The translations under genes were made by a program, and so were the position numbers. This document shows, piece by piece, positions 11,762-25,508 of a stretch of 64,000 nucleotides of DNA. The notes below the pieces were generated by a model. That model was not told the DNA's origin. It saw nothing but the letters and a program-made list of their open reading frames with translations, and searched no databases. Location: positions 930,001 to 994,000 of the forward strand of contig CANNCA010000002.1 in the NCBI GenBank assembly GCA_947503005.1, written 5' to 3'. How positions within the stretch are numbered: the first letter of the stretch is position 1; each line of letters starts with the position of its first letter. The stretch comes from an uncultured Flavobacteriaceae bacterium. Lineage in GTDB: Bacteria > Bacteroidota > Bacteroidia > Flavobacteriales > Flavobacteriaceae.

Positions 11762-12725
11762 TCTTATTATAATTTTTTCTGAGCCAATTCAGCGAGGCAT
11801 TCAATTCGAACCCAAGCAGCAATATATTCGAATTTAACCAGATGTAGACCATTAATATCAATAATCCCCCCAAAGCGCCATACAATTCGTTATAACGCGC
11901 GAATTTTTCCACATAGACCCCAAACAGATAGGACGTTAGCAAGAATAGTAATGTCGTCATAAAAGCACCGGCCGAAAAGAATCTAGCGTGCTTTCCTTCT
12001 GCCGTACCAAAGTAGTATAATGTCGCAGTGGTCAAGTAGGATAAAATAATAAAAAACAAAAATTTCGCGATCTGTACCCCGAGAATATCGTCTTCACCCA
12101 TAATATAGCCGCCTTGCCGAGCGGCGAATTCGCTCAAATAGGTCAAAACATAAACCTCAAAATACACAAATGCCACAAAGCCGATGATGATTAAGATAGA
12201 AAGAATTAAGCCCACCATTAGTGCATATGCATATTGCTTGAAAAAGTTTCTTGTAAGGTTCACGTGATACGAAGTTTCAAAACCACCAAAAATTGCGTTC
12301 ACTCCGTTGGCCATTAAGAAAATTGAAAGGACAAAAGTAGATGATAAGAGTCCGGGTCGTTTTTGATCTTTAATCTGTTGGTAAATCTGTTCGAAATAAT
12401 CACCTGTGGCCGTGGGTAAGAACGATTCAAGAAACGCTGGAAAGTTTTCATCGAACCCGGTATTTTGAAGACTTAAAAAGGAAATTAGGAACGGCACCAA
12501 GGTCAACATAAAAATCAAAAGTGGAAAAAGGGCCAGAAATAAGCTAAAGGCAATGGAACTTGCTCTTGTCGACAGCGCACCCTGTACAATGCCCCGAATA
12601 TACATTTCAATCAAATCGTAGATAGAAAGACCTTCAAAACCCGGTAAACGAATATTTTTCAATAATCGAACGAGCCAATTTATGACAGGAATCTTATCAA
12701 GTCTCTCCTCAATTTCTTTGGACAT
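11745..12725 (-). CDS. YihY/BrkB family inner-membrane protein
   Basis: A 326-residue integral membrane protein with about six hydrophobic segments. The family signature is visible in ASSIAFSLFLALFPLLIF and, at the C-terminus, YNELYGALGGLLILMVYIWL. Members were once called ribonuclease BN in error; the transport or envelope role is unresolved. It starts one base after the nadC stop and overlaps the next gene, so it is translationally coupled to both. Confidence 0.9.
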   Translation of the reverse strand: MSKEIEERLDKIPVINWLVRLLKNIRLPGFEGLSIYDLIEMYIRGIVQGALSTRASSIAFSLFLALFPLLIFMLTLVPFLISFLSLQNTGFDENFPAFLESFLPTATGDYFEQIYQQIKDQKRPGLLSSTFVLSIFLMANGVNAIFGGFETSYHVNLTRNFFKQYAYALMVGLILSILIIIGFVAFVYFEVYVLTYLSEFAARQGGYIMGEDDILGVQIAKFLFFIILSYLTTATLYYFGTAEGKHARFFSAGAFMTTLLFLLTSYLFGVYVEKFARYNELYGALGGLLILMVYIWLNSNILLLGFELNASLNWLRKNYNKNAKKD

Positions 12726-13583
12726 TTAAACGGCTTTTAAGCTCAAATCCATATTATATACTGAATGTGTTAAGGCTCCAGATGAAATATAATCGACACC
12801 GCATTCGGCATAGTTTCGAATTGTATTTTCATTGATCCCACCAGACGATTCCGTGAGACAGTTGTCGCCAATTAGAGCTACGGCCTTTCGTGTATCTTCA
12901 TAATTGAAATTATCAATAAGTATACGATAAACCCCATCGCACTTTAATATTTCCTTGATTTCATCCAAATTACGTGCCTCGACGATAATCTTTAAATCCC
13001 TCTTCGTATCTTGAAGGTACTGTTGTGTCTTTTGAATTGCCTTGGTAATTCCTCCCGCAAAATCAATATGGTTATCCTTTAGCATAATCATATCATATAA
13101 GGCAAATCTGTGGTTTTCGCCACCACCTATTTTTACGGCCCATTTTTCCAAAGCCCGAATTCCGGGAGTGGTTTTTCTGGTATCCAGTATTTTGGTATTG
13201 GTACCTTCCAGCAAATTAACGAACGATTTCGTTTTGGTTGCTATGGCACTCATACGCTGCATGGCGTTCAAAACCAAACGCTCTGCCTTTAAGATGCTCT
13301 GCGAGTTTCCGTACACATAGAAGACGATATCACCATATTTTACCTTTGATCCTTCTGGAATCATAACTTCCACTTCCAAGGAATCATCAACATATGAAAA
13401 AACCTGTTGTGCAAAAGAAATTCCGGCGATAACGCCTTCGTCTTTTACCAACAACTTCGCTTTCCCAGTCGCGTTTTTCGGGATACAGGAAAGCGAGCTA
13501 TGATCACCATCACCGACATCTTCACGAATTGCATTGGCAATAATATAATCAATCTCTTTTTGGAATTGTACTTTTGAAATCAT
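12726..13583 (-). CDS. nadC: Nicotinate-nucleotide pyrophosphorylase (carboxylating)
   Basis: A 285-residue enzyme converting quinolinate and PRPP to nicotinate mononucleotide, CO2 and pyrophosphate in de novo NAD synthesis. The quinolinate-binding segment LDTRKTTPGIRALEKWAV, then GGGENHRF, MLKDNHI and the C-terminal SSGGI and YISSGALTHS are diagnostic. Length is typical. It heads the nadC-brkB-DUF2147-priA unit and is divergent from rlmH. Confidence 0.97.
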   Translation of the reverse strand: MISKVQFQKEIDYIIANAIREDVGDGDHSSLSCIPKNATGKAKLLVKDEGVIAGISFAQQVFSYVDDSLEVEVMIPEGSKVKYGDIVFYVYGNSQSILKAERLVLNAMQRMSAIATKTKSFVNLLEGTNTKILDTRKTTPGIRALEKWAVKIGGGENHRFALYDMIMLKDNHIDFAGGITKAIQKTQQYLQDTKRDLKIIVEARNLDEIKEILKCDGVYRILIDNFNYEDTRKAVALIGDNCLTESSGGINENTIRNYAECGVDYISSGALTHSVYNMDLSLKAV

Positions 13584-13669
13584 TGAAGGGGATTTGCTTT
13601 TCGCTAAATTATGAAATGAGCCATAACTTATGGTAAATCACAACAAAGAAATTCTACTAACTTTAAAAC

Positions 13670-14143
13670 ATGACGATTAAACTTATCGCTATCGGGAAAA
13701 CCGACAGCAAAGCTTTACTGCAATTAATCGGTGAATTCGAAAATCGGTTAAAACATTATGTAAAATTTGATTTGGATATTATTCCTGATATTAAAAATTC
13801 TAAAAACCTATCGGAGGCCCAGCAGAAAGACAAAGAAGGTGAACTCATCCTAAAAAAGCTAAATTCAACAGATGTCTTAGTACTGTTTGATGAAAACGGA
13901 AAGCAATATTCCTCCATGGATTTCTCGAAATACCTCCAAAAGAAAATGAATTCGGGCATTAAGCAATTGGTTTTCGTAATAGGCGGCCCGTACGGATTTA
14001 GTAATTCCGTTTATCAAAAAGCTCAAGGAAAAATTAGTCTTTCAAAAATGACTTTTTCACATCAGATGGTGCGGTTGTTTGTTGTAGAGCAGATTTATCG
14101 AGCTTTTACGATTTTGAAGAACGAGCCTTATCATCATAAATAA
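13670..14143 (+). CDS. rlmH: 23S rRNA pseudouridine(1915)-N3-methyltransferase
   Basis: A 157-residue SPOUT-class methyltransferase that modifies pseudouridine 1915 in helix 69 of 23S rRNA. The SAM-binding knot is seen in FVIGGPYGFS, and the C-terminal LSKMTFSHQMVRLFVVEQIY with RAF and PYHH is the family fingerprint. Length is standard (155-160). The gene stands alone, with a repeat-rich spacer downstream. Confidence 0.97.
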   Translation: MTIKLIAIGKTDSKALLQLIGEFENRLKHYVKFDLDIIPDIKNSKNLSEAQQKDKEGELILKKLNSTDVLVLFDENGKQYSSMDFSKYLQKKMNSGIKQLVFVIGGPYGFSNSVYQKAQGKISLSKMTFSHQMVRLFVVEQIYRAFTILKNEPYHHK

Positions 14144-14147
14144 AAGT

Positions 14148-14275
14148 GCGGAGTTCGAGGTACGAAGTTAGAAGTATTTTACATGTTTCGGAGAAAGGTA
14201 AACAGCCTTGGAGCAACCCCACAAGGAGTTCGATTCAAATAATGGCACCTCGTATTTCGAACTTTGTGTCTCGTA
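14148..14275. repeat. Imperfect inverted repeat between rlmH and serA
   Basis: A left arm around 14153-14169 and a right arm around 14245-14261 can be aligned as inverted copies with only transition differences (13 of 17 positions), so the transcript could pair with G-U wobbles. Both arms are built from TACGA and TTCGA units. The spacer also contains a GTTCGATTC stretch. It lies between two convergent genes, where it may act as a terminator or be a REP-like element. Confidence 0.45.
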
Positions 14276-14276
14276 C

Positions 14277-16169
14277 TTAATATAACACCCTAAACTTAAT
14301 CGTATTCTCGATTTTCTTCAAAGCCTTAATAACGTCTTTGTTGTATTCCTTGTCCAAATCAGTGATAACATAACCTACATCACTATCCGTAGAAAGGTAT
14401 TGACCTAAGATGTTCATATCGTACTTGGCAAGTACTTCATTGATTTTAGCCATAATACCAGGTACGTTCTTGTGAATGTGCAAAAAACGATGCGCCTTGT
14501 TCTGTTTCGGCAATCTAATATTCGGGAAGTTCACCGCATCGACCGTATTGCCTGAATTGATATAATCCATGATTTTGTTCGGTACAAAATCAGCGATATC
14601 GCGCTGCGCTTCTTCAGTGCTTCCTCCAATATGTGGAGTTAATATGACATTGTTCAACCCTTGAAGTTCAGTAAAAAATTCCCCGTTGCTTCTAGGCTCC
14701 TCAGGGTAGACATCAATTGCGGCACCAGCTAGTTTTCCGGATTTCAAAGCTTCTGAGAGTGCCTTAATGTCTACTACAAAACCTCGTGCAAGATTGACAA
14801 AAATGGCGCCGTTCTTCATTTGGTCGATTTCTCGTTCACCAATAAAGTTTTTGTTGGCCTTGTTATCGTCAATATGTAAAGTAACCACATCGGAAACATT
14901 CAACAAATCCTCTAACGTACTGCATTTAATAGCGTTGCCAAGTGCAAGTTTGTCATCGACGTCGTAATAATAAACACGCATACCAAGTGACTCCGCTAAT
15001 ACAGACAATTGCTTTCCGATATTACCGTATCCTACTATACCAAGGTTTTTGCCTCGCACTTCACGTGAACCCTCTGCAGTTTTTTGCCATTGCCCATTAT
15101 GGATTTCCGTACTTCTTGGAAAAATACTTCGCATCAACATGATAATTTCCCCAATTGCCAGTTCTACAACAGAACGCGTATTACTATACGGAGCATTGAA
15201 TACCACAACTCCATTTTTACGACAGTTCGCTAAGTCGATTTGAGTTGTACCAATACAGAACGCGCCGACAACTAACAGTTTATCCGCGGCCTCCAAAACA
15301 TTTTTAGTTACCTGGGTTTTAGAACGAATACCTAGAACATGAACTCCCTTTATTTTCTCTATCAATTCCTCTTCTGGCAAACTATGCTTTATCAATTCTA
15401 CCGAAAAACCGTCTTCAGAAAGATTCTCAAAGGCATCAGGGTGAACGTTTTCCAATAACAGAATCTTTATTCTGTTCTTAGGATAGGATATGTTTCTGGG
15501 CAAATCATTGACAAAGAGAAATTCATCTAAATTCGGAGTGACGTGATCTGCATTGTTGGCAGCTTTATCTCTGTGAACGTTTTCGGTATAGGCAAAGAAT
15601 TTATCAGCTATACCAGCCTCCCGCATTACATAATCACTATAGCCATCACCGATGACCTGAACTTCACCATCCAAATCCATTTGCTTTAAACATTCTATCT
15701 TACCATTATGCTGAGATAGCGGGTTTGTTTCGTCAAAACCGATTATTTTCCCATCCTCATCAAACTCGAAGGTATTCGCATACACCCTGTCTGAGGGAAT
15801 ATTATACTCCTTCACAATGGGGTCAATGAATTCTTTAAATCCGCAGGAAATCACATAAATATCATCTGAAAATCTCTCAAAGAATTCCTTATTCGATTCG
15901 ATGGATTTTGAAATCTTTTGACGTAATTCGGCTACCAATCCTTCTAAATCACTCTTGTTTGCGTTCAATAATTTGATGCGTCTTTCAAGTGATTCAGTAA
16001 ATGAGATATCACCATCAATGCCCAAATTGGTTATTTTCTGAATCTCCTCTATTATTTCTTCACGATTCGATTTGCCTTGTAAAGTCATTTCCGCTAAAAC
16101 ATCTAAGGCCTCTACCCTAGTTAGGGTACTATCAAAATCGAATACGTATTTTCTTCCTTCTTTTACCAT
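14277..16169 (-). CDS. serA: Fused phosphoserine phosphatase / 3-phosphoglycerate dehydrogenase
   Basis: About 630 residues carrying two serine-synthesis enzymes. Residues 1-215 are a HAD phosphatase of the SerB type (DxDST motif in FDFDSTLT, then SCGF and GDGYSD). Residues about 240-545 are a D-3-phosphoglycerate dehydrogenase, with the NAD fold GIVGYGNIG, Arg in LARGFVVD and catalytic His in PHIGGSTEE. A C-terminal ACT domain (about 560-630) is the likely serine sensor. ATG 16169 is chosen over ATG 16199 because the HAD motif follows at the normal distance. The first and third pathway steps are thus joined; serC is not in the window. Confidence 0.92.
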   Translation of the reverse strand: MVKEGRKYVFDFDSTLTRVEALDVLAEMTLQGKSNREEIIEEIQKITNLGIDGDISFTESLERRIKLLNANKSDLEGLVAELRQKISKSIESNKEFFERFSDDIYVISCGFKEFIDPIVKEYNIPSDRVYANTFEFDEDGKIIGFDETNPLSQHNGKIECLKQMDLDGEVQVIGDGYSDYVMREAGIADKFFAYTENVHRDKAANNADHVTPNLDEFLFVNDLPRNISYPKNRIKILLLENVHPDAFENLSEDGFSVELIKHSLPEEELIEKIKGVHVLGIRSKTQVTKNVLEAADKLLVVGAFCIGTTQIDLANCRKNGVVVFNAPYSNTRSVVELAIGEIIMLMRSIFPRSTEIHNGQWQKTAEGSREVRGKNLGIVGYGNIGKQLSVLAESLGMRVYYYDVDDKLALGNAIKCSTLEDLLNVSDVVTLHIDDNKANKNFIGEREIDQMKNGAIFVNLARGFVVDIKALSEALKSGKLAGAAIDVYPEEPRSNGEFFTELQGLNNVILTPHIGGSTEEAQRDIADFVPNKIMDYINSGNTVDAVNFPNIRLPKQNKAHRFLHIHKNVPGIMAKINEVLAKYDMNILGQYLSTDSDVGYVITDLDKEYNKDVIKALKKIENTIKFRVLY

Positions 16170-16214
16170 AATTGTGGAATTCCCTGCCCACGGGAACAAA
16201 AATTAATTAAGCTC

Positions 16215-16222
16215 CAAAATTA
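16215..16222 (-). promoter_or_regulatory. Putative -7 element of serA
   Basis: TAATTTTG on the minus strand matches TAnnTTTG exactly, 45 bases before the serA ATG. A TTG is present only at a longer than normal distance (25 bases), so the -33 part is uncertain. Confidence 0.45.
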
Positions 16223-16333
16223 AAGATTAATTCTGTCGAGCCATTGGCAATGTTATTAAAAGTTATTCAGAATTTTGGTCGATTTGACCCAAATGTAACA
16301 AAGTGAATTTTCTAGTGAAATGGCAGAGCCCAG

Positions 16334-17113
16334 TTATAGGAACGAAAGCATTGATTTAGAAAATTCAGAAGATTTGTAGGTGTTGTTATGATTACCTTTA
16401 ACAATTTTCAATCTACTTTTTGGGATCGTCTTCTGTAAATCATCAGGACTTCCATTATCCAAATCTTCGTCTCCCGCAACAACCAAAACTTTGATTTTAA
16501 TCTGTGCCAATTGTTTTTTAGATGTTACAGGCTGGTATTTCTGCTGAAGATATAGTGATTTGAAGTTGGCGTTTATTGACTTTGCATAATCTACAGCACC
16601 TTTAGTTTCTTCGGTTATCTTACCATTGAAGGCATCCCTGAAAAGAATTCTACGTTTCCATGTTGGGTTGGTAAAATCGATTCCCATACCTCCTAAAACA
16701 GCTTTTTTCAAACGCCTGTCTTTTGTCATCAAACGTGCTAGTAAAATACTACCCCTCGAATATCCAACAGCGTAGTATTTGCTGATTTTTAGCTCTACCA
16801 TTAAAAACATCAGATCCAACACTTCTGAATCTTGGGCGTAGGCTTCATCTTCTTGCGGTTTGTCCGAATCACCGTTGCCACGTAAATCGGGAACGATTAC
16901 ACGATAGCCTTTGGCCAATAGATTCTTTTTCAATTCCGATTTATCCCAATTCTTTCGAGTATTTAAAAACCCATGGATTAACAAAACTGGTTTACCTTTT
17001 CCCTCATCGGAATAGGCAATTTTAGTATCATCAAAAGACTTGAAATATTTGGTTTCTTGACCGAACAGCTGATATCCTAAAAAGAGAATCGAGAGAAATA
17101 GTAAACTTCGCAT
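16334..17113 (-). CDS. Secreted alpha/beta hydrolase
   Basis: A 259-residue protein with a signal peptide (1-19, ending QLFGQ). The alpha/beta fold is shown by the oxyanion segment LIHGFLNTRKNW, the nucleophile elbow GYSRG (Ser about 119), an acid in AGDED (about 213) and His in KGNHNN (about 242), giving a complete Ser-Asp-His triad. The substrate is unknown. It starts four bases after the glycosidase gene and is the last gene of the SatD-led cluster, so it may act on esters released with the glycosidase products. Confidence 0.85.
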   Translation of the reverse strand: MRSLLFLSILFLGYQLFGQETKYFKSFDDTKIAYSDEGKGKPVLLIHGFLNTRKNWDKSELKKNLLAKGYRVIVPDLRGNGDSDKPQEDEAYAQDSEVLDLMFLMVELKISKYYAVGYSRGSILLARLMTKDRRLKKAVLGGMGIDFTNPTWKRRILFRDAFNGKITEETKGAVDYAKSINANFKSLYLQQKYQPVTSKKQLAQIKIKVLVVAGDEDLDNGSPDDLQKTIPKSRLKIVKGNHNNTYKSSEFSKSMLSFL

Positions 17114-17117
17114 AACG

Positions 17118-18275
17118 TTATTCTACCGCAGTCATTTCCTTTATCAAGTCAACCTCTTCTTGACGAAAGGGAGTACCGTCTTTTCGAAGAATATCATGAA
17201 ACCAAACTTTCGGTTCGGCCGTAAAAGTGGAATCCCAACTTTTCCATGGATATATGGTATTACTCTTTCCACTCACAAAGCCCCAATTGATAGCCGCTAT
17301 TTTGTTTTCTTTTAAGATAGGAAGCATATTTTCAAAGAAATTACCATTGGTCCGGGCCATATATTCTGTGCATAGCAAAGGGCGACCGTATTTTTTGAGT
17401 TCCTGAATTTTTTGTTTGACTACATCCATATCATTGTTGTAAGCATGAAAAGATATCACATCGGAGTTTTCAATCATATAACGGTCAACATCAGGTAAAC
17501 TATCCAAAGTACCCCAATTTGAAACTTCGCCTCGCCATATGCCACTTGTCAAAGGTTGTGAGGGATTGACTTCGCGCGACCAATGCATCACTTTCTTCAA
17601 TAATGCCAACGAATATTTTTGCTTGTCTTTCAGTTCGAGTTCTTTTCTGCCGGGCTGGCCCGCTACATTATCCGGTTCGTTATAAACGTCCCAAACCAAG
17701 ACGCGATCATCTTCTGCAAAACGTTTCAACACCCCTTTTATATAGCCCTTCAATTCTTTATGTCTAGTGGTATCGCCCAATATTTCGGCTCCTGGTGCCT
17801 GTACCCAACCTGAATTATGAATGTGCGGCATCGGATTGGGTTGCTTACCCAATTTAGGAATCGGATGCCATACATCATCCAGCAGTACGAACATGGTCTT
17901 AATTCCATGAGAATCGGAAATCTTCAGATATTCATCCAATCGGTTTAAGAAACCTACCGAATCTTGTTCCCATAACAAATTATGCAAGTAAACACGGTGA
18001 AGGTTCATACCTAAATCAGAAGACCATTTTAATTCTCTATCTATGGTTTCAAGGTCAAAAGTTTCTGCCTGCCAAAATTCCAATTGATTTATGGCACTAC
18101 TAGGATTGAAGTTCGCGCCTACCAACCAAGGCTGTTCATTATACCAGTCCCATGCTTTTTCTTCCGACCATCGCTCCCCAATTTCTATTTTAGAGCTCTC
18201 AGGTGTTGTTACCTTCTTTTTTTCTGCGCAAGAGAAGGCAACAAGTGCGGCCAGGCATATGATTATTTTTTGCAT
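17118..18275 (-). CDS. Clan GH-A glycoside hydrolase lipoprotein (cellulase/GH5-like)
   Basis: A 385-residue lipoprotein (lipobox LVAFSC, Cys 16). The TIM-barrel glycosidase features are visible: NLHRVYLHNLLW, the acid/base Glu in WDVYNEPDN (Glu 200), a FHAYNND motif and the nucleophile Glu in LLCTEYMART (Glu 304). This spacing fits retaining clan GH-A enzymes related to GH5, but the exact family and substrate (mannan, glucan or xylan) cannot be assigned by eye. It is probably exposed in the periplasm or on the surface. It lies 11 bases after DUF3307 and overlaps no SusC/SusD pair. Confidence 0.82.
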   Translation of the reverse strand: MQKIIICLAALVAFSCAEKKKVTTPESSKIEIGERWSEEKAWDWYNEQPWLVGANFNPSSAINQLEFWQAETFDLETIDRELKWSSDLGMNLHRVYLHNLLWEQDSVGFLNRLDEYLKISDSHGIKTMFVLLDDVWHPIPKLGKQPNPMPHIHNSGWVQAPGAEILGDTTRHKELKGYIKGVLKRFAEDDRVLVWDVYNEPDNVAGQPGRKELELKDKQKYSLALLKKVMHWSREVNPSQPLTSGIWRGEVSNWGTLDSLPDVDRYMIENSDVISFHAYNNDMDVVKQKIQELKKYGRPLLCTEYMARTNGNFFENMLPILKENKIAAINWGFVSGKSNTIYPWKSWDSTFTAEPKVWFHDILRKDGTPFRQEEVDLIKEMTAVE

Positions 18276-18286
18276 ATTGATTTGAT

Positions 18287-18988
18287 TTACAATTTGGTAT
18301 ATACTAGTCCGGTAATTATGGCGATTCCAAAACTCAGCAAGGTGCCGATTAAAATGTATTCTGTCAACTTTCGGCTATTGCTCTCTTTAAGATCATTAAA
18401 TCTAAAGACAGATTTAGCTGTGATAAGTAATCCAATCGCTTCCCAACGGCCTAAAATAATGAAAATCAGTATAAAAATACGCTCGATGATACCGATATAC
18501 TTTCCCGCATTTGGTAATGATTTGTGGTCCATTTCCAACTTGTCGGACATTTTTTCAAGCAATTTGGTCATAACGATTCCTGCAGGAAAGCTAACAAAAA
18601 CGAAAGCTGTTAGCAAACCCCAATCCAGTCGTTCTAACATATCCAAAGTGTGTTGCCAAAAGTTCCCGTAGAAGGCACAACAATAAAGCACTGCTATATG
18701 TAGCGCCTGATCGATAAAAAATGGAATACTCCTGTTTTCAAACAGTGCGTTCGAGTAGAGTTTCGCTAAATCTATGATATAGTGCGAAACCGTTATGAGC
18801 ACAACCATTTTCCAATAACTCAAGTCCCATAACAACAGCATAGTGACTGCAAAGTGGAGTAACACATGAATGTATAGGTATTTTGAGGCTACTTTCTTCT
18901 TTTCCTTATGCAATACCCATTTATTGGGCTGCAACAAAAAGTCGCCTATCAGATGTGCCAGCAGTAGCTTTATAAAAACGAGGGTCAT
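18287..18988 (-). CDS. DUF3307 family membrane protein
   Basis: A 233-residue inner-membrane protein with about six hydrophobic segments. The start LLLAHLIGDFLLQPNKWVLHK, with HLIGDF and Q, is the DUF3307 hallmark; a second conserved His-Asp pair occurs in VSHYIIDLAK. The family is unstudied. It begins four bases after the SatD-type gene, and such pairs recur in Bacteroidota to my knowledge, so the two are likely a functional couple. Confidence 0.85.
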   Translation of the reverse strand: MTLVFIKLLLAHLIGDFLLQPNKWVLHKEKKKVASKYLYIHVLLHFAVTMLLLWDLSYWKMVVLITVSHYIIDLAKLYSNALFENRSIPFFIDQALHIAVLYCCAFYGNFWQHTLDMLERLDWGLLTAFVFVSFPAGIVMTKLLEKMSDKLEMDHKSLPNAGKYIGIIERIFILIFIILGRWEAIGLLITAKSVFRFNDLKESNSRKLTEYILIGTLLSFGIAIITGLVYTKL

Positions 18989-18992
18989 GGCT

Positions 18993-19595
18993 TTATTCGT
19001 TTAACGTGTGTTCGTAGTAATCTAAAAGTTCAAAGACCAAATCTAGTCTTGCCCTTTTCTGTCTTTGGCTCACTGCAGATTGTTGTATGCTCAACATATC
19101 GGCAATTTCTTGCTGCGACCGATTCGGGTTTTCCAGTGCTATAGCAACGATTTCAGCGGATACGGGGGACCATTCGTCCATAAAGTTCAACGCCAGTTTC
19201 AACATTAAATTGAGAGTTCTTTCGGTTTCTTCATTCCCTGTTGTGATGGCGAGGTTCACTTTTTCCTCCTTCAGGGTTTCGAACGTTCGGCCAGAACGTT
19301 GGTATGCCGTTCCATTGGATTCACTGACACTGTCGCTGCTGAAACTTTCTGTACCTAGACCTATCGCCATGCGAATATCCAAACCTTTAATTGATTTAAT
19401 AATCGCCTTTAGTTGTATAGCAGCCCACAGCACCCTTTTGGGATTTATTTTAAGCTGAAACTCATCACCTCTGTAAATCTCCCAATCTGATGGTGTTTTG
19501 CCCCATTTTGAGAATTGAGCTTTGAGTAAATCTATCCATGGAGAACCTTCATGGCCTTCCGAATTAATAATATCACCTGTTAGTATCGCTGTCAT
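18993..19595 (-). CDS. SatD family regulator: cyclase-like N-domain plus HTH
   Basis: A 200-residue soluble protein. The N-terminal half shows three elements resembling a palm fold of class III cyclases and GGDEF proteins: ILTGDIINS (residues 4-12), YRGDEFQ (41-47) and RMAIGLG (75-81), then a conserved SGRTFE. The C-terminal half has a clear helix-turn-helix (SQQEIADMLSIQQSAVSQ, about 160-177), like sigma region 4 or LuxR folds. This matches the SatD family. Enzymatic activity is unproven. It heads a four-gene cluster and is preceded by a three-unit repeat array that covers its own promoter, so it probably regulates itself. Confidence 0.8.
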   Translation of the reverse strand: MTAILTGDIINSEGHEGSPWIDLLKAQFSKWGKTPSDWEIYRGDEFQLKINPKRVLWAAIQLKAIIKSIKGLDIRMAIGLGTESFSSDSVSESNGTAYQRSGRTFETLKEEKVNLAITTGNEETERTLNLMLKLALNFMDEWSPVSAEIVAIALENPNRSQQEIADMLSIQQSAVSQRQKRARLDLVFELLDYYEHTLNE

Positions 19596-19596
19596 A

Positions 19597-19673
19597 ATAT
19601 AAGCTAAAACGCTAATATATAAAAATATAAGCTAAATAGCTAATAATTATCAAATATAAGCTAAATAGCTAAT
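19597..19673 (-). promoter_or_regulatory. Three tandem operator-like repeats over the satD promoter
   Basis: Three 20-base units lie at 19597-19616, 19625-19644 and 19654-19673, spaced 28 and 29 bases, that is nearly three helical turns. Units 2 and 3 are identical (ATATAAGCTAAATAGCTAAT on the plus strand); unit 1 differs at two positions. Each holds two AGCTAA or CGCTAA half-sites. Unit 3 contains a perfect -7 box for the minus strand and unit 1 ends one base before the satD ATG. Confidence 0.75.
19651..19658 (-). promoter_or_regulatory. -7 element of the SatD-led operon
   Basis: TATATTTG on the minus strand matches the Bacteroidota -7 consensus exactly and lies inside operator unit 3. Transcription would start near 19644, placing units 1 and 2 in the leader. 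No clear TTG -33 was found, as is common for regulated promoters. Confidence 0.55.
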
Positions 19674-19681
19674 GTTATGTC

Positions 19682-19705
19682 ATTATAAGTGAATTCGCTT
19701 ATAAT
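19682..19705. promoter_or_regulatory. 24-bp near-perfect palindrome upstream of the satD promoter
   Basis: ATTATAAG and CTTATAAT flank a GAATTC centre; only one base pair of the 24-bp dyad is broken. Its half-site shares TATAAG with the three tandem units. It sits 24-47 bases upstream of the -7 box, a position suited to a dimeric activator or repressor. Confidence 0.55.
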
Positions 19706-19748
19706 TAGATATTTCGCTAAACGTTTTTAGTTCGGCAAAGCGCCTAGC

Positions 19749-19762
19749 AACAACAGGTATAA
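19749..19762 (+). repeat. Copy 1 of a shared intergenic 14-mer
   Basis: AACAACAGGTATAA occurs here, between the satD promoter region and the methyltransferase gene, and again at 50534-50547 in another non-coding stretch. Both are preceded by a GC-richer short segment. It may be a trace of a dispersed intergenic repeat. Confidence 0.35.
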
Positions 19763-19775
19763 AGCAGTCGCTACT

Positions 19776-20228
19776 TTAGAACCATCTTCTCACCAAAGTG
19801 CAATACTGCGTATACTCCTTACCGAACAAGTTCAAAAGAATTTTTTCTTCGGGAATAATCTGAAAACGGTTCATGTACATCACGAAACCTGCCGCAATCA
19901 AGACATTGAAAGCGTTTACTAAGTACAATCCCCAAACCAAAAGCAATAATAGTAAAGCCAAATACATTGGGTTTCGTGAATATTGATACAACCCTATCGT
20001 AACCAATTTGGAAGCCTTGGCGGGATTTGTAGGGTCCACAGTTGTCTTAGACCTGAAAAACTGCACCAATGAAATAAAACCAACAATCGTGGCAATAGCG
20101 AACAAGCCATACATCAAATAGGTTCTTCCGAAAAAATCGAAATAACCCACAGGAAGAAAATGTGCCAAAGCGTACATCAACACTCCGAACACTAAAAAAA
20201 CAACAACGGGAGGTACTTTCAATTTCAT
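19776..20228 (-). CDS. Isoprenylcysteine carboxyl methyltransferase-like membrane protein
   Basis: About 150 residues from ATG 20228 (an upstream ATG 20252 would add eight residues, MMAEIILI). Four hydrophobic helices are followed by the family signature GLYQYSRNPMYLALLLLLL, a mid-helix NA, and the C-terminal EEKILLNLFGKEYTQYC. This is the ICMT/PEMT-type integral membrane methyltransferase fold that uses SAM. Bacterial members act on lipids or small thiols and the substrate here is unknown. It is divergent from rdgB. Confidence 0.85.
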   Translation of the reverse strand: MKLKVPPVVVFLVFGVLMYALAHFLPVGYFDFFGRTYLMYGLFAIATIVGFISLVQFFRSKTTVDPTNPAKASKLVTIGLYQYSRNPMYLALLLLLLVWGLYLVNAFNVLIAAGFVMYMNRFQIIPEEKILLNLFGKEYTQYCTLVRRWF

Positions 20229-20258
20229 AATAAGAATAATTTCAGCCATCAAATTTAC

Positions 20259-20266
20259 TACTTTTG
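20259..20266 (+). promoter_or_regulatory. -7 element of rdgB
   Basis: TACTTTTG matches TAnnTTTG exactly, 37 bases before the rdgB ATG. The -33 TTG was not seen at the usual distance. Confidence 0.5.
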
Positions 20267-20303
20267 ACCGCGTTGTAATAGCAACTCGCTAAAAGAACCT
20301 ACG

Positions 20304-20888
20304 ATGAAATTAGTATTCGCAACCCACAACCAAAACAAGTTCAATGAAGTTAAAGCGCTGCTCCCATCGCATATAGAACTTGTATCGTTGACGGACATTG
20401 GATGTCACGATGAAATACCAGAAACAGCGGAAACTTTGAAAGGCAATGCCAAAATCAAGGCGGACTACGTAACCCGAACGTATGGGCTGAATTGTTTTGC
20501 CGATGATACCGGCCTCATTGTAGACGCTCTAAACGGAGCGCCCGGAGTATATTCGGCACGCTACGCCGGGGAACAAAAGAACGCACAAGATAACATGAAT
20601 AAATTATTATCCGAACTAAAAGGAGTAGAGAACCGTTCTGCACGATTCCAAACCAGTATTGCGTTGAATATTGATCGAGAAACCATTTATTTCGAAGGTT
20701 TTGTCGAAGGAAAAATAACAACATCAAAAAGTGGAGAACAAGGTTTTGGATACGACCCCATTTTTCAACCTGAAGGCTATCAAAAAACATTTGCAGAGCT
20801 GCCTCTAAAAGTAAAAAACCTAATCAGCCACAGAGGAAAAGCCATTCAAAAACTAGTGACATATCTCCATCAGAATTCTACCAAATAA
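20304..20888 (+). CDS. rdgB: dITP/XTP pyrophosphatase (RdgB/HAM1 family)
   Basis: A 194-residue enzyme that hydrolyses non-canonical purine triphosphates such as dITP, ITP and XTP to monophosphates, keeping them out of DNA and RNA. Motifs: FATHNQNKFNEV at the N-terminus, FADDTGLIVDALNGAPGVYS in the centre, GFGYDPIF and the C-terminal SHRGKA. Length is standard. It is a single gene followed after 8 bases by the -7 box of the helicase gene. Confidence 0.96.
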   Translation: MKLVFATHNQNKFNEVKALLPSHIELVSLTDIGCHDEIPETAETLKGNAKIKADYVTRTYGLNCFADDTGLIVDALNGAPGVYSARYAGEQKNAQDNMNKLLSELKGVENRSARFQTSIALNIDRETIYFEGFVEGKITTSKSGEQGFGYDPIFQPEGYQKTFAELPLKVKNLISHRGKAIQKLVTYLHQNSTK

Positions 20889-20896
20889 ATTTAAGG

Positions 20897-20904
20897 TATC
20901 TTTG
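20897..20904 (+). promoter_or_regulatory. -7 element of the DEAD-box helicase gene, with a long leader
   Basis: TATCTTTG matches the consensus exactly. The helicase ATG is at 21014, so the predicted mRNA leader is about 100 bases. The stretch 20911-21013 contains no ORF of note. Confidence 0.55.
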
Positions 20905-21013
20905 CCGCTTTAATTAACGCCGCTGGTATAGCATGTGTTGCGCCGAGTCTAATAGGTTATGTCGATAATCGCTCTATGCAACAGACATATTTGCGATTAA
21001 CGTAACACTTATT

Positions 21014-22801
21014 ATGAATAAATTTGAAGCACTGGGGCTGCAAAAGTCCCTATTGGATGCTGTCGCCGACATGGGATTCGAAACCCCATCTGAAGTACAG
21101 GAAAAAGCAATCCCCATTTTATTAGAGACTGAAACCGATTTGGTCGCCTTAGCTCAAACCGGCACGGGAAAAACCGCCGCCTTTGGTTTTCCACTTATCC
21201 AGAAAATAGATAGTAATAGCAGAACCACGCAGGGGCTTATACTCTCCCCAACCCGTGAACTTTGTCTGCAGATTACCAAAGAAATACAGGCATACTCAAA
21301 ATACGAAAGAAATATCAATACCGTTGCCATTTACGGTGGTGCAAGTATTACGGAACAGGCTCGCCAAATCAAACGTGGTGCACAGATTATCGTTGCAACA
21401 CCAGGTCGTATGAAAGATATGATCAGTAGACGTTTGGTCGATATTTCAAAAATTGATTACTGTATACTCGACGAGGCCGATGAAATGTTGAACATGGGCT
21501 TTTTTGAAGATATCAAGGATATTCTTTCGAATACGCCAAATGAAAAATCTACTTGGTTGTTCTCGGCTACCATGCCCAAAGAAGTTGCCATAATCGCGAA
21601 AAAATTCATGCACAGCCCTCAGGAAATTACAGTGGGGACAAAGAACGCGGGTACATCAACCGTTCAGCATGAGTACTATGTGGTTGGCGGAAGAGATCGC
21701 TACCCGGCCTTAAAAAGATTGGCGGATACAAATCCAGATATTTTTTCGGTAATTTTCTGTAGAACAAAACGCGATACACAAAAGGTTGCCGAAAAACTGA
21801 TTGAAGATGGTTACAATGCGGGAGCGTTACATGGTGATTTGAGTCAGAACCAACGCGATTTGGTAATGAACTCCTTTCGTAAAAAGCAAATTCAAATGCT
21901 GGTTGCGACTGACGTGGCAGCCCGTGGTATCGATGTGGATGATATTACGCACGTAATTAATTATCAACTTCCCGATGAAATAGAGACCTATACACACCGT
22001 AGTGGTCGTACCGGTCGTGCTGGAAAATCTGGAATTTCGATGGTTATCGTTACTCGGAGTGAACTTCGTAAGATAAAATCTATCGAGAATAAGATCCAAC
22101 AAAAATTTATTCCCAAAACAATCCCTACTGGAATGGAAATCTGTGAGATTCAGCTCTACCATTTAGCCAATAAAATTAAGGATACCAAAATCAATGAAGA
22201 TGTTGAGCATTACCTTCCGGCCATTAATGATGTGCTTCAAGGTATTGATCGCGAAGAATTGATAAAGAAAATAGTATCTGTAGAGTTCACACGATTCTTT
22301 AACTATTACAACAAATCAAAAGATTTGAATACTTCTTCCGATTCAAGAAATCGAAGTGGCGACCGAGATTACAGCAATCGAGGGGATGCACCTTCTTCAG
22401 GATCCGTGCGTTATTTTATCAACGTGGGCGAGAAAGATGGTTACGATTGGATGTCTTTAAAAGATTTTATTCGAGATACCGTAGGCCTTAGTCAAGATGA
22501 TTTGTTCAAGGTAGATGTAAAAGATAGTTTTTCTTTCTTTAATACCGATGCGGCCGTTACGGATAAAATTCTCTCAACTTTTACAGATCTTAAAGTAGAC
22601 GGAAGATTCGTCAACGTTGAAGTTTCCAAAAACCCCGGGGGAGGCGGAGGCCGAAGAGACAGAAAACGCAGCGGTGGAGGCGGTGGAAGAGATCGAAGCA
22701 AAGGCAGCCGTGACAAAAGCAAACGCAGAGAGCGGAGCTTTTCAAAAAGTGAAAACTCGGGTAAAAGAAGAAGCAAACGTCGACAAAGCGATTTCTTTTA
22801 G
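21014..22801 (+). CDS. DEAD-box ATP-dependent RNA helicase with RG-rich tail
   Basis: A 595-residue RNA helicase for ribosome assembly, RNA decay or cold adaptation. All motifs are visible: AQTGTGKTAA (I), PTRELCLQ (Ia), TPGRM (Ib), DEADEM (II), SATM (III), VATDVAARGID (V) and HRSGRTGRAG (VI). After the core (1-370), a linker and a DbpA/CsdA-type RNA-binding domain (about 470-545) are followed by a Gly/Arg/Ser/Lys-rich tail (about 545-595) that should bind RNA without specificity. The CsdA/DeaD subgroup is the best match, but the exact orthologue is not certain. Confidence 0.94.
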   Translation: MNKFEALGLQKSLLDAVADMGFETPSEVQEKAIPILLETETDLVALAQTGTGKTAAFGFPLIQKIDSNSRTTQGLILSPTRELCLQITKEIQAYSKYERNINTVAIYGGASITEQARQIKRGAQIIVATPGRMKDMISRRLVDISKIDYCILDEADEMLNMGFFEDIKDILSNTPNEKSTWLFSATMPKEVAIIAKKFMHSPQEITVGTKNAGTSTVQHEYYVVGGRDRYPALKRLADTNPDIFSVIFCRTKRDTQKVAEKLIEDGYNAGALHGDLSQNQRDLVMNSFRKKQIQMLVATDVAARGIDVDDITHVINYQLPDEIETYTHRSGRTGRAGKSGISMVIVTRSELRKIKSIENKIQQKFIPKTIPTGMEICEIQLYHLANKIKDTKINEDVEHYLPAINDVLQGIDREELIKKIVSVEFTRFFNYYNKSKDLNTSSDSRNRSGDRDYSNRGDAPSSGSVRYFINVGEKDGYDWMSLKDFIRDTVGLSQDDLFKVDVKDSFSFFNTDAAVTDKILSTFTDLKVDGRFVNVEVSKNPGGGGGRRDRKRSGGGGGRDRSKGSRDKSKRRERSFSKSENSGKRRSKRRQSDFF

Positions 22802-22817
22802 TTAATTCTGTATTAAA

Positions 22818-22842
22818 AGATATGCTTCAGCGTATTTTTTTG
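22818..22842 (+). terminator. Terminator of the helicase gene
   Basis: A 6-bp stem (ATATGC with GCGTAT, one G-U pair) closed by a TTCA loop is followed by seven T. It lies 17 bases after the helicase stop. Confidence 0.65.
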
Positions 22843-22868
22843 TTTTGTTTAGTACTTTTAATTGCTTG

Positions 22869-23654
22869 ATGAGAAAATTCATATTCATTTTTTTGCTGGT
22901 CGGTTTTTGGGGCTTCTCTCAAAATGAAGAGACCGAAAATCAGAATAAAGAGTTTAATGCCCTGGTAGTAAATGCCCAGACAGGCTTTCCTATGGAAAGT
23001 GTTCATGTGGTCAACCTCAATCAGGTAATTGGTACTATTACCAATGAGAAAGGTGAATTCTCAATAACTGCAACCGTAAACGACACCCTTTACTTTTCCT
23101 TTCTCGGGTTTAAATCCCAAAAAATTAGGGTGACCAATGATATGTTCAAGTTCGAGGACACTAAAATATCATTGACTGAATTGGCCTATGCCCTTGAAGA
23201 AGTCATAGTAAGACCTTACCAACTTACAGGATATTTGGAAATAGATGTAAAAAATCTACCGGTAAATAGCGCTTATCAATATAGTATTTCTGGACTTGGA
23301 GTTAGTTATGAAGCTGGGAATAAAAGTCCAAGTGCGGTTACGAAAGTTTTAGGAGCCATTCTGAATCCCGCAGATTTGTTAAGGAATCTCTTTGGCAAAA
23401 AGCCAAATCAGATGCGAAAGTTACGACAAGTGAAAGAAGATGATGAAATCCGAAATTTATTGGCTTCTAAATTCGACCGCGAAACACTGACAGAATTACT
23501 ACAATTGGAAAAAGTGGATATCGAGGATATTCTCAATAACTGCAGTTACTCCAAGTCCTTTATCAAAACCGCCAACGATCTTCAAATCCTTGATGCAATA
23601 AGTGGTTGTTATGAAGATTTCAAGGTGCTAAATCGTGGTAAAAATGGGAAATAA
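22869..23654 (+). CDS. Carboxypeptidase-like regulatory domain protein, secreted
   Basis: About 261 residues from ATG 22869, chosen because it places the signal peptide (MRKFIFIFLLVGFWGFSQ) first; ATG 22845 lies in the terminator region. Residues about 30-105 form a CarboxypepD_reg-like beta sandwich, with NAQTGFPMESVHVVN, GTITNEKGEF and LYFSFLGFKSQKI, the domain that precedes plugs in Bacteroidota outer-membrane receptors. Here no barrel follows; the remaining 150 residues are helical and charged. It is probably periplasmic, with unknown role. Confidence 0.82.
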   Translation: MRKFIFIFLLVGFWGFSQNEETENQNKEFNALVVNAQTGFPMESVHVVNLNQVIGTITNEKGEFSITATVNDTLYFSFLGFKSQKIRVTNDMFKFEDTKISLTELAYALEEVIVRPYQLTGYLEIDVKNLPVNSAYQYSISGLGVSYEAGNKSPSAVTKVLGAILNPADLLRNLFGKKPNQMRKLRQVKEDDEIRNLLASKFDRETLTELLQLEKVDIEDILNNCSYSKSFIKTANDLQILDAISGCYEDFKVLNRGKNGK

Positions 23655-23816
23655 CACCACGCTACGAATTGATTTGAAGTAATTGCAAGACACTTTTTAA
23701 AGAACTGCACGAAATCATCCGACTGGTTAATACCCTATATGGCCCATGCAAGTACAAACTGAAATAAATTTTCAAGTTACACCATCATTTTATAGCTTTA
23801 GAAAAAATAGTTTCAG

Positions 23817-25508
23817 ATGCAAAAACTGCTTATTGCCTTTACTTTAGTATTCTTATTTATCGCATGCAAACAAGTTAAAAAGGAAGCTATACCAGAGCAA
23901 GCCGTAATTGCTGAAATTTTTGAGGAGGAAGAATCTCATATACCATTCGTTTGGGAAGGTGCCAATATTTACTTCTTGCTAACTGATCGCTTCCATAACG
24001 GAGACACTTCCAATGATGTAAACTTTGGACGAACCAATGAAACTGGTGTTTTAAGAGGTTTTATGGGTGGTGACATGAAAGGCATAACTGAAAAAATCAA
24101 TGAAGGCTATTTTACGGATTTGGGTGTCAACGCGATTTGGTTTACTCCAGTGGTAGAACAAATACATGGCGATACTGATGAAACTACAGGAAACACTTAT
24201 GGCTACCATGGCTATTGGACCAAAGATTGGACGGCATTAGACCCCAATTTCGGAACAATGGATGACTTAGAGGAACTTATCGTAACAGCACACTCGAAAG
24301 GAATCCGAATTTTGATGGACGTTGTTCTAAATCATACCGGTCCAGCTACCCCCAAAGATCCTGTTTGGCCAGCGGAATGGGTGCGTGAAGAACCAGTTTG
24401 TGAATTTACAACATACGAGAATACAACGAGCTGTACCCTAGTCAAGAATCTGCCCGATATCCTAACGGAATCAGATGCAGCGGTAAAATTACCTGATGCA
24501 TTACTTGCCAAATGGAAAGCCGAAGGCAGATTACGTCAAGAACTCGATGAACTAGAACTATTTTTTGAACGTACTGGCTATTCTCGAAGCCCTCGTGCGT
24601 ATATCATAAAATGGCTTACCGACTATGTTGGAGATTTTGGTATTGACGGTTACCGTGTAGATACGGTGAAGCATGCAGATGAAAAATCTTGGGCAGAACT
24701 ATACGAGCAAGCATCTTATTCGTTTGATAGTTGGAAAAAGAAAAATGTCACCGAAGTACTTGATGATAATCCCTTTTATATGATGGGAGAAGTTTACAAC
24801 TATGGGATTTCGGGGGGAAGGGAATTTGATTTCGGCGATAAAAAAGTTGATTATTATAACCATGGTTTCAATAGCCTCATCAACTTCGAATTGAAGCAGG
24901 ATGCAAAAAACGACTACGAGACCATTTTCAGAAAGTACAACAAACTGTTGAACAGCAAATTAAGTGGAAAGAGTGTAGTCAATTATTTGACCTCACATGA
25001 TGACGCAGAACCCTTCGATAAAGAACGCGAACAGCCAGTTCGAACCGCAAACGTATTACTTTTGACTCCTGGAGTATCACAGATTTATTATGGAGATGAA
25101 AGTGCCCGTGATTTGACCATTGAAGGTTCGGTGGGTGATGCAACACTGCGTTCTTACATGAATTGGGATGATATTGATAGTTTAGAGACCACCCAAAAAT
25201 TACTTTCGCATTGGAAAAAATTGGGTCAATTTAGAAATAACCACCCTGCAGTTGGGGCAGGAAAGCACAAACGACTTGGCAAGAAACCTTATGTTTTCAG
25301 TAGAACCTACAATAAAGGAGACATTAAGGATAAAGTCGTTATTGGCTTGGATTTACCAAAAGGGAAAAAATCCCTTTGGGTTAAAGGTTTTTTTGGTGAT
25401 GGCACCAAACTCTACGACACCTACTCAGAAACAGAGGTAGTTGTAAACAAGGGAAAGGTCATTCTTGAAAATGATAATGACATCGCCTTATTGGAGTTGG
25501 CCCAATAG
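23817..25508 (+). CDS. Alpha-amylase family (GH13) lipoprotein
   Basis: A 563-residue lipoprotein (lipobox LFIAC, Cys 17) with a GH13 barrel. The four conserved regions appear in order: MDVVLNHTG (I), GYRVDTVKHA (II, nucleophile Asp about 282), MMGEVYN (III, acid Glu about 325) and YLTSHDDAEP (IV, Asp about 395). A C-terminal beta domain follows. It should cut alpha-1,4-glucans or maltooligosaccharides at the cell surface or in the periplasm. No SusC/SusD genes lie beside it, so it is outside a canonical starch locus. The 160 bases upstream hold nothing recognisable. Confidence 0.93.
   Translation: MQKLLIAFTLVFLFIACKQVKKEAIPEQAVIAEIFEEEESHIPFVWEGANIYFLLTDRFHNGDTSNDVNFGRTNETGVLRGFMGGDMKGITEKINEGYFTDLGVNAIWFTPVVEQIHGDTDETTGNTYGYHGYWTKDWTALDPNFGTMDDLEELIVTAHSKGIRILMDVVLNHTGPATPKDPVWPAEWVREEPVCEFTTYENTTSCTLVKNLPDILTESDAAVKLPDALLAKWKAEGRLRQELDELELFFERTGYSRSPRAYIIKWLTDYVGDFGIDGYRVDTVKHADEKSWAELYEQASYSFDSWKKKNVTEVLDDNPFYMMGEVYNYGISGGREFDFGDKKVDYYNHGFNSLINFELKQDAKNDYETIFRKYNKLLNSKLSGKSVVNYLTSHDDAEPFDKEREQPVRTANVLLLTPGVSQIYYGDESARDLTIEGSVGDATLRSYMNWDDIDSLETTQKLLSHWKKLGQFRNNHPAVGAGKHKRLGKKPYVFSRTYNKGDIKDKVVIGLDLPKGKKSLWVKGFFGDGTKLYDTYSETEVVVNKGKVILENDNDIALLELAQ

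Follow-up and report, generated by a model that had tools for sequence, protein, structure and literature searches.

What does SatD control, and which genes belong to the unit that it leads? The question is raised by a gene cluster in a 64,000-nucleotide stretch of DNA from an uncultured Flavobacteriaceae bacterium (contig CANNCA010000002.1, positions 930,001 to 994,000; the whole stretch is called the window below). Here satD, named after Streptococcus mutans secretion and acid tolerance D, is followed on the minus strand by genes for a DUF3307 membrane protein, a GH-A-like glycosidase and an alpha/beta hydrolase, with gaps of 4, 11 and 4 bases between the open reading frames (ORFs; Table 1). 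An earlier, sequence-only reading of the locus had described this SatD-led cluster, a cyclase-like regulator and operators over the promoter, and all of these stand; the weight that it placed on the glycosidase and the hydrolase does not. Judged from gene order across genomes, the conserved unit is satD plus the membrane-protein gene, not the set of four. We consider it fairly probable that the two genes form a module in which SatD, a ligand-sensing autorepressor, holds a possibly harmful membrane protein in check.

Two collections of loci can be compared with the window. The family sample comprises 199 Flavobacteriaceae genomes, 111 of which contain a SatD match; the named set consists of the best 80 of 578 confirmed loci and leans to close relatives. 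DUF3307 begins within 80 bases after satD in 108 of the 111 family-sample loci, and it is next to satD in 79 of the 80 named loci, the 80th (L198) stopping at a contig end. The search can also be run in the other direction: DUF3307 is found in 114 of the 199 genomes, with satD directly upstream in 114/114, including six genomes without a SatD match in the first search that carry a divergent satD at this place. The partner was never seen alone in these genomes. satD without DUF3307 was seen in two loci, L138 and the divergent L099; a third (L148) is probably not a SatD. In L138, satD is followed directly by a serA-like fusion gene, similar to the gene that lies beyond the cluster in the window (14277-16199). 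In two genomes (G028 and G184) the DUF3307 reading is interrupted and satD is intact.

The linkage of the other two genes is much looser. In the model built on the sequence-only reading, SatD would sense a polysaccharide-related ligand, and the purpose of the operon would be the release of two exported enzymes. By eye, the N-termini are lipobox-like in the glycosidase and signal-peptide-like in the hydrolase, in keeping with export. Enzymes of clan GH-A have two catalytic Glu, on strands 4 and 7; in the glycosidase, E200 (in NEP) and E304 (in TEY), the candidates for this pair, are invariant in 9/9 aligned sequences, and no PDB relative was found by sequence at E 0.1. Ser119 of the hydrolase, in GYSRG, is invariant in 25/25 sequences. 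The pairing of satD with a glycosidase, on which that reading had made itself depend, does occur outside the window: the glycosidase stands directly behind DUF3307 in 8 of the 80 named loci (L154, L156, L162, L167, L176, L184, L189 and L199) and the hydrolase in 24. Both enzymes occur together in L154 only, where the hydrolase lies behind the glycosidase and the four-gene order thus recurs once besides the window. The loci with tail enzymes belong to close relatives of the window: Zobellia, Maribacter, Ulvibacterium, Cellulophaga, Pelagihabitans, Poritiphilus, Eudoraea and other Flavobacteriaceae. However, neither enzyme is found behind the pair in 49/80 named and 103/110 family-sample loci (a few of these loci stop early at a contig end, and a weak hydrolase match 4.3 kb off in L073 was not counted). 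Both enzymes also exist apart from satD. Glycosidases of at least 68% identity lie beside satD in G018, G032 and G104 besides the window, and further copies are found in two genomes without a satD match, G052 (68%) and G095 (61% identity). Hydrolases lie beside satD in G001, G026, G075 and G120, occur in G086 and G102, which have no satD match, and stand away from satD in G104. Finally, a polysaccharide utilisation locus would have a SusC-like transporter next to the glycosidase, but no SusC-sized ORF overlaps 12000-24000 (the largest has 640 residues; SusD was not searched for). Enzyme release as the purpose of the unit is thus very unlikely, and the glycosidase and hydrolase would instead be lineage-specific genes riding behind the pair.

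In the window, an imperfect inverted repeat occurs four times in tandem upstream of satD, the copies being spaced by 28, 29 and 29 bp. The sequence-only reading had listed three repeats plus a palindrome; the repeats are real, and they are better read as four copies of one operator, since the palindrome is a fourth copy in register. Tandem inverted repeats are found nearly everywhere among the satD upstream regions of relatives, and in most of these promoters the geometry is the same (a 5-bp half-site, an 8-bp spacer and a 28-29-bp period), while the letters vary by lineage. Sites were called without reference to the protein, from geometry only (AT plus three free bases, with the 8-bp spacer), using log-odds and requiring G or C in the half-site; an earlier half-site caller had been set aside because it could not separate arrays from shuffled AT-rich sequence. 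The 191 regions scanned were those of the family sample (111, window included) and the named set (80), between which there is some overlap of species, for example L125 and L167. The array is beyond chance: 172/191 satD upstream regions score above the 95% point of their dinucleotide shuffles and 154/191 above the 99% point, and successive sites are spaced by 28 bp (252) or 29 bp (53) in 305 of 339 cases. Among 200 upstream regions taken as controls from these same loci, 9 are above the 95% point and 1 above the 99% point, and 0/19 spacings are 28 or 29 bp. It follows arithmetically from the geometry that half-sites alternate at 13 and 15 bp, so that successive sites wind round the DNA helix; one may speculate about a SatD filament along the array.

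Each genome can also be searched for tandem arrays of its own half-site class. In a first set, 9/10 genomes match at the satD promoter, with 0-2 mismatches at the best place; four places elsewhere (three in G154 and one in G005) all have 3 mismatches. In a second set, limited to 2 mismatches and sharing three genomes with the first, 8/8 genomes match at the satD promoter only. A search of the window's genome with the bare motif AAGC-N6-GCTTA gave 20 matches, against 57 for the reversed control; this motif has the wrong core and is uninformative on a regulon. With essentially a single promoter to serve, SatD would be free to change in concert with its operator, and the half-site has been switched repeatedly.

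How the two change together can be seen from the protein. In the predicted structure, the third helix in the C-terminal helical domain of SatD spans residues 172-181; it would be the recognition helix, with Gln177 as the key residue. Half-sites and protein were compared in 143 of the 191 loci; loci were left out if they were not above the 95% point, had fewer than two sites or were at least 85% identical to a kept locus. The half-sites fall into seven recurrent, hand-drawn classes with matching recognition-helix residues. Residue 177 shares 1.47 of 2.22 bits of shuffle-corrected mutual information with the class, the next column having 0.84, and it is the best column of the whole SatD for each of the three variable half-site bases taken singly, as it is for the classes. 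Gln177 goes with NAG in 68/69 (the other is AGG), Arg177 with WAC in 14/15 and Lys177 with NCC in 13/17 and WAC in 4/17; Glu177 is found with CGN (10/19) and CTG (9/19), a split that largely follows residues 173/174. Asn173 is present in 8/8 loci with CAC or CAT, where position 177 is occupied by Asn, Ser, Thr, Gly or Met; Asn174 is present in 4/4 loci with ATG, and residue 177 is then Thr, Tyr or Ala. Among the NAG loci, eight carry His, Leu or Ser in place of Gln177, and these all belong to the divergent group L102-L115.

From residues 173/174/177, the class was predicted correctly for 124 of the 143 loci and wrongly for 2, with 17 having no match. When kin of at least 60% N-domain identity were excluded, these figures became 99, 2 and 42. 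The nearest N-domain neighbour, used as the predictor instead, was right in 114/143 and, with kin excluded, in 80/143. On a tree made from SatD residues 1-140 only, there are 27 changes of half-site class, compared with a shuffled mean of 64, and among 71 disjoint nearest pairs residue 177 differs in 16/17 pairs of differing class and agrees in 49/54 of the same class. Shared descent therefore does not explain the co-variation. In one pair of loci, L049 (ATTCC) and L144 (ATCAC), residue 177 is the sole difference within positions 171-179. Arrays of mixed type are found in three further loci (L059, L063 and L068): the distal sites are ATTCC-type and the proximal ones ATCAC/ATCAT-type, all in a 28-bp register, which is how a promoter midway through the switch would be expected to look. 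Since half-site and recognition-helix residues change together across lineages, SatD very probably binds its own promoter.

The rest of the protein suggests what such binding might respond to. SatD is predicted (predicted local distance difference test score, pLDDT, 95.2; predicted template-modelling score, pTM, 0.92) to consist of a class III cyclase/GGDEF-like N-terminal domain (about residues 1-140) and a C-terminal helix-turn-helix. Among the 50 PDB matches of the model listed by Foldseek, 49 are adenylyl or uridylate cyclases (the latter at ranks 19 and 44), GGDEF proteins, type III CRISPR Csm/Cmr subunits or GTP cyclohydrolase III; rank 50 is a Y-family polymerase. The single SatD sequence has no match in the PDB, and a SatD profile gives weak helix-turn-helix and cyclase matches alone (best E 0.004); PHROGs yields weak helix-turn-helix matches alone. 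Asp8, Ser12, Gly43, Asp44, Gly81, Gly95 and Gly102 are present in 143/143 sequences, Asp8 and Asp44 being the metal Asp pair by a residue equivalence judged by eye. The predicted fold and this invariant pair agree with the cyclase-like regulator of the sequence-only reading, and the N-terminal domain likely belongs to the class III cyclase/GGDEF superfamily.

The same features could mean that SatD works as an enzyme, either a nucleotide cyclase or an oligonucleotide synthetase, and that its product switches on the membrane partner, as in a Pycsar- or CBASS-like signalling pair. A cyclase/Cas10-type fold with an invariant metal Asp pair, uridylate cyclases among the structural matches and a membrane partner would all suit such a system, as would a Sphingomonas plasmid copy that lies directly beside an annotated Pycsar system (see below). 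Yet the transition-state positions, also assigned by eye, are not conserved: position 103 is Arg in only 61/143 and Glu in 65/143, and Gln99 is found in 52/143. PADLOC, including its Pycsar cyclase and effector models, matches none of the four proteins with E values of up to 1 allowed, and a DNA-binding role accounts for the array without any product. A signalling pair of this kind is thus highly improbable. Compared with class III adenylyl cyclases, GGDEF proteins, the Cas10 palm and GTP cyclohydrolase III, SatD has a similar predicted fold and the metal Asp pair, but it is fused to a helix-turn-helix and the catalytic residues of the second half are not conserved. We read the N-terminal domain as a probable nucleotide/metal sensor.

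Put together, the preferred mechanism is as follows. SatD dimers would bind the phased array of 18-bp inverted-repeat operators at the promoter through the C-terminal helix-turn-helix and so silence satD itself along with the downstream genes. Most likely, a metal-nucleotide ligand would bind to the N-terminal domain and alter DNA binding. The product that is always controlled would be the membrane protein, as full DUF3307 or as its C-terminal half alone, and this protein would probably be harmful or costly if unregulated.

Repression, rather than activation, is suggested by where the array lies relative to the promoter. Upstream of satD in the window is the sequence TATATTTG, a candidate Bacteroidota -7 element that fits the consensus TAnnTTTG; no good -33 element was seen by eye. 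In the 143 loci, TAnnTTTG has 103 matches, compared with 26 in mononucleotide shuffles, and the matches are mostly in phase with the array. Their commonest offsets from the operator start, 17 (38 cases) and 45 (15 cases), are one period apart. In 45 cases the motif overlaps an operator (offset 17 in 38 and 15 in 7), and SatD likely represses its own promoter. On a rival view, SatD is instead an autoactivator and the pair an ordinary housekeeping unit (for acid or envelope stress, for example) with a non-toxic membrane protein. Two features are compatible with activation: the motif is often found at offset 45, one period below the last site, and in some loci the array stops 30-60 bases or more above the ATG. 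The conserved chromosomal setting near the serA-like fusion gene, in the window and L138, would fit a housekeeping role too, and one report cites work that ties the sat genes of S. mutans to acid tolerance (PMC11323703). According to that report, however, no accessory gene of S. pyogenes other than satD (178/249 genomes) falls in the top quarter of essentiality (PMC11323703). An essential but accessory gene, together with the one-sided linkage described above, fits restraint of the partner better, and we regard autoactivation as rather unlikely.

The partner itself offers few structural clues. The model of the DUF3307 protein is all-helical. It has no match in the PDB by fold or sequence, with nothing below E 1.6 in the fold search, and in BFVD three phage proteins, themselves named DUF3307, lead at E 0.2-0.4; no mechanism can thus be taken from structure. 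In 187 sequences, His12, Asp16, Gln20, His69, Phe90, Gln94, Ala161, Gly162, Ile165, Gly166, Glu169 and Arg170 are invariant, and His41, Asp73, Lys76 and His97 are found in 186. The paired His and Asp residues in the N-terminal half hint at a metal or proton site, which the short partners described next would lack along with that half. The C-terminal half, from about residue 120, lies outside PF11750, is equally conserved and is always beside satD.

This can be followed in a phylum-wide sample of 148 Bacteroidota genomes, in 31 of which the Pfam SatD profile has matches (this profile misses some Flavobacteriaceae SatDs, for example in G127 and G154). Separate profiles for the two halves were applied to 30 loci, which include the window and other Flavobacteriaceae already counted. 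The gene after satD matches the C-terminal half in 29/30 (E 7.4e-4 or better), and the 30th locus stops at a contig end. The N-terminal half is present in 16 and absent in 13 of the 29 partners; those without it are 12 short proteins (104-113 residues; L231-L242) and one of 247 residues (L229). In an alignment, the short partners share with the long form the positions E-R, K-x-x-x-R and D/E-Y-F-L-x-G. Restraint is favoured by these 29 partners, by the 114 of 114 DUF3307 genes preceded by satD, with satD alone in two loci, and by the reported essentiality in S. pyogenes. The phage side is different: two SatD query proteins gave no match in phages, and phage DUF3307 matches fall in the first half of the window protein. 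Phage proteins named DUF3307 have about 110-131 residues, and the one found by sequence (L268 1947-2276) matches window residues 12-101.

The pair is also found on plasmids, including those of Pseudomonadota. Nine plasmid loci were compared, from Segatella, Vibrio, Pseudomonas, Enterobacter, Salinivibrio, Sphingomonas, Agrobacterium, E. coli (pEC34A) and a small Klebsiella plasmid. The gene upstream of DUF3307 matches the SatD profile in 9/9, most weakly in Agrobacterium (E 2e-8), where the partner is a 90-residue gene corresponding to the C-terminal half. On pEC34A, a mobilizable plasmid of 3.77 kb, the satD-DUF3307 pair is almost the sole cargo (L260 1792-3481); its DUF3307 is matched at 100% in five equally long Klebsiella records, and a search of E. 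coli complete genomes gave no close copy of the pair. In 6/9 plasmid loci (two of which share one array), phased inverted repeats with a 28-29-bp period outscore every one of 60 mononucleotide shuffles. In Vibrio, the array combines 6-bp arms and a 6-bp spacer with a 28-bp period. Toxin-antitoxin or defence genes adjoin some of the pairs, and on the Sphingomonas insulae plasmid (L266 1314-5312) the immediate neighbours of a satD-like gene and DUF3307 are an annotated Pycsar effector and a gene with a cyclase domain.

A bolder proposal, which we put forward tentatively and hold to be possible rather than probable, is that satD and its partner are a widespread, undescribed module of the addiction or defence type. 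A nucleotide-sensing, cyclase-fold repressor would silence a membrane effector, with the DUF3307 C-terminal half as its core, via the 28-bp phased array, and a change in cellular nucleotides, such as infection might bring, would lead to its release; repeated switches of specificity through a few recognition-helix residues would prevent cross-regulation of neighbouring copies. If true, this would account for satD of S. pyogenes being both essential and accessory.

Several observations weigh against the mechanism that we prefer. No array above the 95% point is present in 19/191 loci, among them the near relative L149, and 3/9 plasmid loci have no phased array. TAnnTTTG lies within 160 bases in only 73/143 loci. 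In one genome (G051, 88% complete) the satD reading is interrupted and DUF3307 intact. No Foldseek match of SatD reaches E 0.001, the best being 2.2e-3; thus, the superfamily is likely but no close relative has been solved. The half-site classes were drawn by hand after the called sites had been viewed, and residue 177 alone is right in 115/139. For the classes other than NAG, residues 173 and 177 are right in 47/59 (8 unmatched), or in 34/50 with kin excluded (17 unmatched), so that the rule holds less strictly there than the overall count implies; the nearest N-domain neighbour is right in 40/67 of these loci, and in 19/67 with kin excluded.

The module is real and conserved. As a look-alike of other autoregulated operons it is ordinary; what is unusual is the cyclase-fold regulator, the constancy of the membrane partner, the uniformity of the array and a recognition code that can be seen. 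Like a type II toxin-antitoxin system, it has the regulator first and the partner next, tandem inverted repeats at the promoter, a partner not seen alone in 114 genomes, and plasmid copies. It differs in combining a membrane partner of about 105-356 residues with a cyclase-fold regulator. As for the families, the window SatD is over the Pfam cut-off of PF16264, a name that the excerpts available use for S. pyogenes and Fusobacterium proteins; those excerpts make no mention of DNA binding, operators, a cyclase fold or a partner gene. The window's DUF3307 protein is well above the cut-off of PF11750, of which phage copies exist, but it has the second conserved half, and 13/30 phylum-sample partners match that half only. 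No description of the pair was found in the literature searched, which covers few subscription journals; nor did that literature mention PF11750 or PF16264, or SatD together with 'transcriptional regulator' and 'cyclase', and DUF3307 is named, in the excerpts available, as a phage ORF.

For a family known mainly by the name SatD, binding to its own operators would be a likely function, and one tied to the DUF3307 membrane domain. The seven half-site classes with their matching helix residues form a natural series that can serve as a test bed for repressor-operator co-change. The puzzle of an essential accessory gene also becomes testable: is satD essential only owing to the presence of its partner?

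The features of the locus are collected in Table 1.

Table 1. Coordinates of the satD cluster and its putative upstream elements in the window
Feature	Positions	Strand	Basis and remarks
alpha/beta hydrolase ORF	16334-17113	minus	ORF list; Pfam Abhydrolase_1 75.9 bits (cut-off 25.8); clade-specific tail gene
GH-A-like glycosidase ORF	17118-18275	minus	Pfam Glyco_hydro_cc 21.1 bits (cut-off 21, marginal); clade-specific tail gene
DUF3307 membrane protein ORF, satD partner	18287-18988	minus	PF11750 96.3 bits (cut-off 23), residues 4-104
satD ORF	18993-19595	minus	Pfam SatD PF16264 39.0 bits (cut-off 29)
Operator O1, ATTAG-N8-CTTAT	19599-19616	minus	Repeat analysis upstream of satD; putative
Operator O2, ATTAG-N8-CTTAT	19627-19644	minus	Repeat analysis upstream of satD; putative
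Operator O3, ATTAG-N8-CTTAT	19656-19673	minus	Repeat analysis upstream of satD; putative
Operator O4, ATAAG-N8-CTTAT	19685-19702	minus	The palindrome of the sequence-only reading; putative
Candidate -7 element, TATATTTG	19651-19658	minus	Fits TAnnTTTG; overlaps O3

From their spacing, the four genes may be co-transcribed. A terminator scan gave no minus-strand site in 16150-19900, promoter-like sites numbered 16 against 10.0 expected, and Rfam had no match at gathering scores in 14000-21000. Beyond the cluster, the ORF at 14277-16199 joins HAD phosphatase-like and D-3-phosphoglycerate dehydrogenase-like domains to an ACT domain and is a possible SerB-SerA fusion. Upstream of satD, on the same strand, 19776-20252 encodes an isoprenylcysteine methyltransferase/PEMT-like membrane protein, and by eye the end of such a gene seems to precede satD in several relatives too. 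An alpha-amylase-like protein, also recognized by eye, is encoded near the locus on the plus strand (23817-25508).

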